Positions 8,949-49,427 of a DNA stretch of 64,000 nt are shown piece after piece. The position numbers and the translations under genes are program-made. Position 1 is the stretch's first letter. Every line of letters begins with the position of its first letter. The notes beneath the pieces are model-generated. The model was not told the DNA's origin and made no database searches. It saw nothing but the letters and a program-made list of their open reading frames with translations. Source of the stretch: Gemmatimonadaceae bacterium (GTDB lineage: Bacteria; Gemmatimonadota; Gemmatimonadetes; Gemmatimonadales; Gemmatimonadaceae); the NCBI GenBank assembly GCA_037721215.1, contig JBBJNV010000011.1, positions 1 through 64,000 of the forward strand, written 5' to 3'.

Positions 8949-9257
8949 CTACTCGACCTTGATTTCGACGTCGACGCCAGCCGGGAGATCCAGCTTGGTG
9001 AGCGCATCGACTGTCGCAGCGCGGCTGTCGAGAATGTCGATGAGCCGTTTGTGCGTCTTGAGCTCGAACTGCTCGCGGGATTTCTTGTCCACGTGCGGGG
9101 AGCGCAGCACCGTCCAGCGCTTTGTCTTCGTCGGGAGCGGAATGGGCCCCGATACCTGAGCACCCGTCTTTTCCGCCGTACGGACGATGTCTGCTGACGC
9201 CTGGTCGATCACTGCGTGATCGAACGCCTTGAGACGGATGCGAATTCTGCCTGCCAT
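8949..9257 (-). CDS. rpsJ: 30S ribosomal protein S10, first gene of the S10 operon
   Basis: A 102-residue S10, also known as the transcription antitermination factor NusE, which pairs with NusB and NusG. The start [19 protein letters not shown] at 9257 is chosen on conservation, and GAGGT lies about 12 nt upstream. The open frame extends 18 codons further into the leader, but that part is not conserved. [19 protein letters not shown] is the family signature. It is the first gene after a structured leader of about 195 nt, so it is exposed to any attenuation control there. Confidence 0.96.
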
Positions 9258-9311
9258 GTGGATTGACCTCGGGATAGCTTCACTGCGTGATGGCGCTTGC
9301 TCTGGCCACAT

Positions 9312-9419
9312 TCAACAAAAACGCGGCTGGACCTGGCGCCCTATAAAGGGCCGGTATCCATCCGCTGCCGCCGGGTGCACCCGCAACTGGAACGCGGATG
9401 GGGACTCGAGGCGCGCCGG
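9312..9419 (-). ncRNA. structured 5' leader element of the S10 operon (copy A)
   Basis: This 108-nt element in the rpsJ leader, read on the minus strand, matches the leader of fusA at 92 of 109 aligned columns. The first 20 nt and the last 15 nt are identical between the two copies. In RNA sense it has, in order: a GC-rich 5' block; a strand CCAUCCGC (9401-9394); a hairpin CGGG-UGCA-CCCG; a strand GCGGAUGG (9365-9358) complementary to the first strand over 8 bp; a nested hairpin GCCCU-UUAU-AGGGC; the strand UCCAGCCGC; and U5. It ends 54 nt before the rpsJ start. I do not recognise it as a named RNA family. Confidence 0.75.
9317..9365 (-). terminator. terminator-like attenuator hairpin in the rpsJ leader
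   Basis: In minus-strand sense, GCGG-A-UGGA-UA-CC pairs with GG-UCCA-G-CCGC around the nested GCCCU/AGGGC hairpin. GUUUUUGUU follows at once. This is the layout of an intrinsic terminator, placed upstream of the first gene of an essential operon. The upstream strand at 9394-9401 can capture the 5' arm over 8 perfect base pairs, so the terminator and antiterminator folds exclude each other. Confidence 0.6.
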
Positions 9420-9460
9420 TGTTCGTAGCTTCCGGCGTTGAGTTGTGGTGTAGCCTTATC

Positions 9461-9488
9461 AATTTACTCGGCTTCGGATGGGAGTCAA
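9461..9488 (-). promoter_or_regulatory. candidate promoter for the S10 operon
   Basis: Minus-strand TTGACT (9488-9483) and TAAATT (9466-9461) are separated by 16 bp. AAGGCT (9457-9452) lies exactly 25 nt after the -35 hexamer, the same spacing as upstream of fusA. A start there would give a leader of about 195 nt that contains element A. The -10 match is only moderate. Confidence 0.5.
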
Positions 9489-45828: not shown

Positions 45829-47022
45829 TTACTTGAGGATCTTTGTAACTACGCCGGCACCGACGGTGCGGCCGCCCTCTCTGATTGCGAACCGGAGACC
45901 CTCGTCCATCGCGATCGGCGTTATCAGCTCGATCGTCATCTGTACGTTGTCGCCCGGCATCACCATCTCCATCCCTTCCGGAAGCTCTACACTCCCCGTT
46001 ACGTCCGTCGTCCTGAAATAGAACTGCGGACGGTAACCCTTGAAGAACGGCGTATGCCTTCCACCCTCCTCCTTCGTCAACACATACACCTCGGCCAGAA
46101 AGTTCGTGTGAGGCGTGATGCTGCCCGTCTTGGCCAGCACCATTCCGCGTTCCACATCGTCCTTCCCAACCCCACGAAGCAACAGACCAACGTTGTCGCC
46201 AGCACGTCCCTCGTCCAGCAGCTTCCGGAACATCTCGACACCCGTGATCACCGTCTTCTTGTCAGCGTTGAAGCCGATCAGCGAGACTTCCTCGCCCACC
46301 TTGACGATGCCTCTTTCAATTCTGCCCGTCGCTACCGTACCACGACCAGTGATCGAGAACACGTCCTCGACCGGCATGATAAAGGGCTTCTCCACCTCTC
46401 GCTCGGGCTGCGGGATATAGGAATCAAGAGCGTCCATCAGCTCCGTGATCTTCTTCCCCCACTCGCTCTCGGGGTCGCCTGACTCCAGCGCCTTGGTCGC
46501 ACTCCCCTGGATGATCGGCGTATCGTCGCCCGGGAAGCCATAGGACGAGAGGAGCTCTCTCACTTCCAGCTCCACCAGCTCCAGCAGCTCCGGATCGTCG
46601 ACCATGTCGACCTTGTTCATGAACACCACGATGTAGGGCACGTTCACCTGCTTGGCCAGCAGGATGTGCTCTCGCGTCTGCGGCATCGGGCCGTCAGCAG
46701 CACTCACCACCAGGATCGCACCATCCATCTGCGCGGCACCGGTGATCATGTTCTTCACGTAATCGGCGTGGCCCGGGCAGTCGACGTGAGCGTAGTGTCG
46801 CTTTACGGACTCGTACTCGACGTGGGCGGTAGCGATGGTGATGCCGCGCGCCTTCTCTTCCGGGGCTTTATCGATCTGGTCGAAGGCCACCGACTGAGCC
46901 AGGCCCTTCTTCGCCTGAATCGCCGTGATCGCCGCGGTAAGTGTCGTCTTCCCGTGATCGACGTGGCCGATAGTGCCAACGTTTACGTGCGGCTTGTTTC
47001 GCTCAAACTTTGCTTTTCCCAT
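45829..47022 (-). CDS. tuf: translation elongation factor Tu
   Basis: A 397-residue EF-Tu, which delivers aminoacyl-tRNA to the ribosome as a GTP complex. G1 is [14 protein letters not shown] near residue 19, G2 is [13 protein letters not shown]3 is [12 protein letters not shown], and G4 is [18 protein letters not shown]. The C-terminal barrels end in [12 protein letters not shown]. Length is normal. It is 26 nt downstream of fusA, and a strong hairpin follows. In many bacteria rpsJ comes next; here it is about 36 kb away. Confidence 0.98.
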
Positions 47023-47048: not shown

Positions 47049-49208
<2,160 letters not shown>

Positions 49209-49247: not shown

Positions 49248-49356
49248 TCAACAAAAACGCGGGTGGACCATTTCGCCCCGCGAAGGGCAGGTATCCATCC
49301 GCAGCCGCCGGGTGCGCCCGTGGCTGTAACGCGGGCGGGGACTCGAGGCGCGCCGG
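49248..49356 (-). ncRNA. structured 5' leader element of the fusA-tuf operon (copy B)
   Basis: This 109-nt minus-strand element is the partner of the rpsJ leader element, with 92 of 109 aligned columns identical and one single-base gap. The central hairpin is CGGG-CGCA-CCCG. The nested hairpin GCCCU-UCGC-GGGGC keeps its pairing although loop and closing base differ from copy A (U-A there, U-G here). The strand CCGCCCGC (49338-49331) pairs with GCGGAUGG (49302-49295) with one G-U and one mismatch. It ends 39 nt before the fusA start. Confidence 0.75.
49253..49302 (-). terminator. terminator-like attenuator hairpin in the fusA leader
   Basis: GCGG-A-UGGA-UA-CC pairs with GG-UCCA-C-CCGC around the nested hairpin, and GUUUUUGUU follows. 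The same pairs form as in the rpsJ leader, with only the internal A-G mismatch changed to A-C. Position before the first gene and the competing upstream strand suggest conditional termination. Confidence 0.6.
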
Positions 49357-49398
49357 ACTCAACGATGAACCCGGCGGTAAGTTTGTGAACAGCCTTGA

Positions 49399-49427
49399 AT
49401 AATCACATTCGCGTGAGCTGGTGTCAA
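49399..49427 (-). promoter_or_regulatory. candidate promoter of fusA-tuf
   Basis: Minus-strand TTGACA (49427-49422) and GATTAT (49404-49399) are 17 bp apart. AAGGCT (49396-49391) lies 25 nt after the -35 hexamer, as upstream of rpsJ. This is a good sigma-70-type match and would give a leader of about 185 nt. Confidence 0.6.

Follow-up and report, generated by a model that had tools for sequence, protein, structure and literature searches.

The window analyzed here, a 64,000-nucleotide stretch of a Gemmatimonadaceae contig (JBBJNV010000011.1), carries two similar leader RNAs on its minus strand, one ahead of fusA and the other ahead of rpsJ, raising the question of whether they constitute a regulatory element and, if so, how it might act on the translation genes that follow. 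The rpsJ leader (9313–9437) and the fusA leader (49249–49375) share 84% identity over ~110 nt in a pairwise sequence match, and each is a structured RNA with a terminator at its 3′ end. Read directly, both copies display GCGG-A-UGGA-UA-CC ... GG-UCCA-C/G-CCGC and then GUUUUUGUUG, which bears out the intrinsic-terminator layout that the initial annotation had assigned to them.

In the fusA copy (all coordinates here and below being on the minus strand), a promoter scan recovers a −35 hexamer TTGACA (49422–49427) and a −10 hexamer GATTAT (49399–49404) separated by 17 nt, with 10/12 matches as against 0.1 such promoters expected in shuffles; transcription would thus be expected to start near 49393. 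The first hairpin, P0 (49352–49375), comes from the single-sequence fold, and its CGCCG..CGGCG pairing is kept in the genus. It is followed by the P1/P2 hairpin (49306–49350), comprising CGCC..GGCG, GAGU/ACCC and the P2 helix GCCCG/CGGGC, with covariation in both P2 and P1. The terminator hairpin P3 (49259–49302), which features an A·C mismatch and a UA bulge, has its 5′ arm GCGGAUGGAUACC at 49290–49302, an upper stem, P4, at 49270–49289, and its 3′ arm GGUCCACCCGC at 49259–49269. The U-tract GUUUUUGUUG (49249–49258) places the predicted 3′ end near 49253. The first gene after the leader is fusA (47049–49208; elongation factor G; TIGR00484, 1140 bits; ATG at 49208), succeeded by tuf (45829–47022; elongation factor Tu).

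The rpsJ copy has the same layout: a promoter with −35 TTGACT (9483–9488) and −10 TAAATT (9461–9466) across a 16-nt spacer (9/12 matches in the scan), P0 (9414–9437; CGCCGG..CCGGCG, conserved in the genus), and the covariation-supported P1/P2 hairpin (9369–9413), in which P1 pairs CGCC (9410–9413) with GGCG (9369–9372) and P2 pairs CAUCCGC (9394–9400) with GCGGGUG (9378–9384). Its P3 (9323–9365; 5′ arm 9353–9365, 3′ arm 9323–9333) carries an A·G mismatch and a UA bulge and leads into the U-tract GUUUUUGUUG (9313–9322), with a predicted 3′ end near 9317. Hence, as judged from the hexamers, a predicted sigma70-type promoter lies ahead of each window copy. The downstream gene rpsJ (uS10) spans 8949–9257, with its ATG at 9255–9257 and rplC next downstream. 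The longest-ORF call for this gene (8949–9311) begins right beside the leader U-tract; the real start is likely the ATG at 9257 rather than the longer ORF start at 9311. More generally, the matched U-tract is usually followed after 9 to 60 nt by the start codon, and the ribosome-binding region, too, comes after the tract. Thus, the element is placed for the control of transcription rather than translation. Two short motifs recur outside the helices. AAGGCT(A/G) occurs at the expected transcription start (49390–49396 and 9452–9458 in the window) in many family members, including those whose promoters otherwise differ. Many leaders, both in the window's family and in the sister families (L055–L074, L239–L248), have a single-stranded ACAAC ahead of P0; in the window it is found at 9442–9446, and as ACAAAC in the fusA copy.

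Across the window's family the structure can be described as P0 (CGCCG..CGGCG), P1 (CGCC/GGCG and GRGU/ACCC), P2 (CACCCGC/GCGGGUG), a linker, and P3 (GCGG-A-UGGA-NA-CC / GG-UCCA-C-CCGC) capped by P4 and followed by GUUUUUGUUG. This P1/P2/P3/P4 model shows 26 two-sided cells as compared to 5.3 in shuffles, the covariation coming mostly from P2 and P4, while P1 covaries too. For P3, 48 distinct sequences are paired in 99.6% of cells, as against 33–45% when the arms are slid, and contain 42 two-sided cells versus 15 in shuffles. Between families, its UGGA/UCCA segment changes to GCGA/UCGC with compensation on both sides (UA to GC and GC to CG). In the sister families, alignment folding independently recovers the order P0-P1-P3-P4; P0, P1 and P4 each show compensatory changes there, and P2 is missing or replaced. 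The mismatched A of P3 is present in 106/106 sequences, facing C in 80, G in 22 and T in 4, and is unpaired in 102 of them; the second base of the NA bulge is likewise A in all 106, and at least five T occur within 9 nt after the stem in every one. The most conserved positions of the leader fall in P3, and this terminator hairpin is its invariant, sequence-specific part. Taken singly, neither window leader folds better than its shuffles (z −0.7 and −0.8), so the support for the terminator is comparative rather than energetic; a simple terminator scan of the window leaders missed P3 because of its bulges.

Is the terminator then one arm of a switch? The initial annotation had proposed that an upstream strand, corresponding to the 5′ strand of P2, sequesters the 5′ arm of P3, and that a ligand bound to a central hairpin, CGGG-YGCA-CCCG, selects between the two folds. 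The complementarity itself is as it had been described: CCAUCCGC of the rpsJ copy pairs 8/8 with GCGGAUGG, and CCGCCCGC of the fusA copy 7/8 including one G-U. Further, the two strands can pair in 84% of cells from 22 relatives, and in the rpsJ copy equilibrium folding gives the upstream pairing a probability of 1.00 in a truncated transcript and 0.33 in the full one; of the two forms predicted to compete, however, the upstream one is negligible in the fusA copy. Yet the helix has zero two-sided changes, not above shuffles. Among 79 leaders of the family, the median probability is 0.98 for the terminator form as against 0.00 for the upstream pairing; among 20 leaders from sister families the terminator median is 0.96. 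A single relative (L036) has a predominant upstream pairing, at 0.96, and a few leaders besides the window rpsJ copy form it in part. Folding of the alignment with the 3′ strand of the terminator removed yields no conserved alternative, the upstream pairing never exceeding 0.15 per base, and the sister families have nothing equivalent to the P2 5′ strand that an antiterminator would need. The mutually exclusive antiterminator is thus rejected as a conserved element, given its lack of covariation, the terminator median of 0.98 and the lack of a conserved alternative fold. The proposed ligand hairpin goes with it: it shows no covariation, since its bases are in fact parts of P2 and P1, two helices that do covary. 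We accordingly regard the proposed switch as highly doubtful. The complementarity between P2 and P3 is best explained as that of two GC-rich helices with similar arms, and in the rpsJ copy the upstream pairing may at most matter slightly, as a peculiarity of that lineage.

The phyletic spread of the leader was traced with searches of increasing reach. BLASTN with the rpsJ leader found matches in 21 of 41 related genomes, nearly all ahead of fusA; copies ahead of rpsJ were found for the window genome itself and for three others of its genus (L001, L012, L014 and L023). Of 394 genomes of the class, 132 were matched by a covariance model, R1; they take in nearly the whole of the window's family as well as representatives of two other families in the order. 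A second model, R2, limited to the terminator and derived from the three families together, matched 198 of 395 genomes across the phylum, essentially all in the same order, with weak matches in five genomes outside it (four at E 0.03–0.05 and one at 8e-4). An exact degenerate pattern run against 84,980 species genomes hit 98 stretches, and among the 80 titles listed all but 'Bacterium HR33' are Gemmatimonadota or its members. Where genomes of the family or order lacking a leader match were checked with EF-G, they had no fusA match at the cut-off, except for one in which fusA lies at a contig end; hence, they provide no evidence of leader loss. These matches indicate that the leader is conserved throughout the order Gemmatimonadales. 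No Rfam 15 family was matched by the window leaders (the best, unrelated match has an E of 0.35 and lies far under its gathering score), and the Rfam ribosomal protein leaders and riboswitches gave neither a gathering-score match nor a meaningful E-value. The open-licence literature searched reports no such leader for Gemmatimonadota. On this showing the leader represents an RNA family not catalogued before, though of a kind that is already familiar.

Many relatives from other families of the same class have no terminator at the rpsG-fusA junction, indicating that the operon can do without it. Terminator-like hairpins are seen between rpsG and fusA at some loci of these families (L272, L280, L269, L273, L276 and L292), of which L272 keeps GCGG-A-...-C-CCGC and then GUUUU, suggesting a wider, more diverged version of the leader terminator. 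Separately, palindromic REP-like units (GTAGGGGCGCAGCATGCTGCGCCC and similar) occur in or beside the leader region at the rpsG-fusA junctions of a sister family (L055, L056, L058, L060 and L069), situated before P0, in P1, or right after the U-tract.

Gene neighborhoods place the element, in its ancestral setting, within a super-operon. The order rpsL-rpsG-[RNA]-fusA-tuf-rpsJ-rplC-rplD-... occurs in several genomes of two families, with rpoC right upstream in two of the stretches read, and fusA-tuf-rpsJ-L3-L4 is contiguous in five loci (L115, L116, L117, L118 and L120). From this gene order we reconstruct the ancestral site as rpsG-[RNA]-fusA-tuf-rpsJ-rplC-rplD... in a single super-operon, where the terminator sits between rpsG and fusA and the leader precedes an operon encoding uL4. 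Within the window's family, many members lack an upstream rpsG, the RNA remaining next to fusA. In the window's genus a further break falls between tuf and rpsJ, and a second leader copy stands ahead of rpsJ. One genome, G012, has a leader copy and a promoter-like sequence within a short tuf-rpsJ junction (L121, 1–420), showing that a second leader can arise without full separation of the operon. The branching of the leader tree does not settle the number of duplications that gave rise to the rpsJ copies.

Several known systems invite comparison. In E. coli, uL4 acts with NusA to favor termination at a hairpin of the S10 leader (PMC10931766), and, going by the title of Zengel and Lindahl (1996), cited in PMC7186457, attenuation there requires a hairpin upstream of the terminator. 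The Gemmatimonadales element resembles it in having a copy that precedes rpsJ, an intrinsic terminator in the leader with a conserved hairpin just upstream, a downstream operon that encodes uL4, and a model that needs no competing antiterminator. It differs in that its main site is before fusA, in the phylum, in the lack of an Rfam match, and in its P3 signature and P0/P1/P2 hairpins, which are not known from the E. coli leader. In streptococci an attenuator between rpsG and fusA has been predicted (the 'rpsL-leader'; Naville and Gautheret 2010, PMC2965389), and it likewise is a premature terminator within the str operon. However, it was described as having no globally conserved sequence or structure, and antiterminators were proposed for it (PMC2965389). 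That published description sets it apart from the present leader, whose sequence and structure are conserved across an order, which has no conserved antiterminator and which has an rpsJ copy. The Pelagibacter rpsL motif (Meyer et al. 2009, PMC2704228) is also a structured RNA of the str-S10 super-operon, but it is a three-stem junction, is usually found before rpsL and only occasionally before fusA, is restricted to Pelagibacter and marine samples (PMC2704228), and is reported to fall short of terminator criteria (PMC2965389). The S10 r-leader of Firmicutes and the rpsJ motif of Peptostreptococcaceae are structured 5′-UTRs ahead of rpsJ (PMC7247131, PMC11109978) like the second copy here, but belong to another phylum, and the window matches no Rfam family; neither Gemmatimonads nor fusA are mentioned in the main text of the two papers. 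Finally, in the E. coli str operon a uS7 site in the rpsL-rpsG junction controls coupled translation (PMC10931766). While there, too, the same operon is regulated by one of its own ribosomal proteins, the site is one gene further upstream and translational; the leader described here has its terminator past rpsG, just ahead of fusA, and persists in genomes where rpsG lies elsewhere.

The sequences define an RNA family with its structure, U-tract, location, distribution, and copies at both halves of the operon. On this basis we infer that termination indeed takes place at P3 and is conditional, with a ribosomal protein providing feedback repression. The reading we moderately favor is a factor-controlled attenuator without an antiterminator, acting on the fusA-tuf-rpsJ-rplC-rplD-... 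super-operon of Gemmatimonadales. Under this model, RNA polymerase would make the lead-in, P0, P1/P2, and then P3 with its U-tract ahead of the ribosome-binding site of fusA or rpsJ. P3 would be the default fold with no conserved antiterminator to oppose it; a trans-acting factor would recognize P3 by its mismatched A, its NA bulge and its fixed helix sequence, and thereby set how frequently the polymerase terminates. That factor would probably be a ribosomal protein of the downstream operon, closing a feedback loop that represses it. The default terminator, the lack of a conserved antiterminator, the invariant unpaired A, the preceding hairpins and the essential genes downstream together point to a termination efficiency set by such a factor; with essential genes downstream, a fully efficient terminator would be untenable. 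Consistent with this are the placement of the leaders almost only ahead of fusA throughout the order, the near-complete pairing of P3 with its compensatory change, the retention of the RNA with fusA without rpsG, the copy before rpsJ where tuf-rpsJ is interrupted, and the promoters at both window copies. On the other side, the leader shares no more than chance-level matches with rRNA, matches no ribosomal protein leader of Rfam, and belongs to a junction at which many relatives in other families carry no terminator; some of the termination may also be constitutive. A ribosomal protein had already been considered a plausible regulator in the initial annotation, and by analogy it stands as a candidate. 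The single most likely one would be uL4, a tentative choice made because it acts in this manner in E. coli, with another S10/spc ribosomal protein, uS7, or EF-G/EF-Tu also being possible.

Much of the same evidence bears on the alternatives. That the terminator is the default fold and ancestrally lay inside the str-S10 super-operon would also suit a constitutive, leaky terminator that sets the ratio of rpsL-rpsG to fusA-tuf-S10 or isolates fusA with no regulation; but a plain terminator would need neither an invariant mismatched A, a bulged A and a fixed helix across an order nor the conserved preceding hairpins, and as the leader has its own promoter and moves with its genes after the operon split, little would be left for it to isolate. 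We therefore hold this to be rather unlikely. As for what might be recognized, a search for rRNA mimicry, using the terminator model unfiltered and k-mers against the 16S/23S loci of relatives, gave only chance-level matches, such as 9-mers shared with the 5′ part of 23S (ACCCGGCGG and GCGGAGCGA), about what is expected by chance for a 6-kb GC-rich locus. This result, along with the primary association with fusA rather than with a ribosomal protein gene and the highly conserved unpaired A residues, would fit a small-molecule riboswitch or an action of the elongation factors themselves on the terminator, to which we nonetheless give little credence because the downstream genes are always translation genes and the rpsJ copies exist, the usual setting of ribosomal protein leaders. 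It is likewise quite improbable that the terminator hairpin itself is the receptor, its mismatched A, NA bulge and fixed helix forming the site bound by one of the translation factors EF-G and EF-Tu or by some other signal that is not a ribosomal protein. Were that so, one RNA would coordinate the elongation factors and the S10 operon, having been copied to each half upon interruption.

Under the attenuator model, with conditional control by a factor reading P3, the leader probably throttles the production of the translation machinery. A phylum with little regulatory annotation thus gains an RNA element that probably controls EF-G and EF-Tu and probably also, under the ancestral gene order, the whole S10 operon. 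The rpsJ copy at the interrupted super-operon provides natural evidence that the S10 half is among the targets of the element, and the invariant A residues of the terminator mark the exact positions for probing which protein sets the readthrough.
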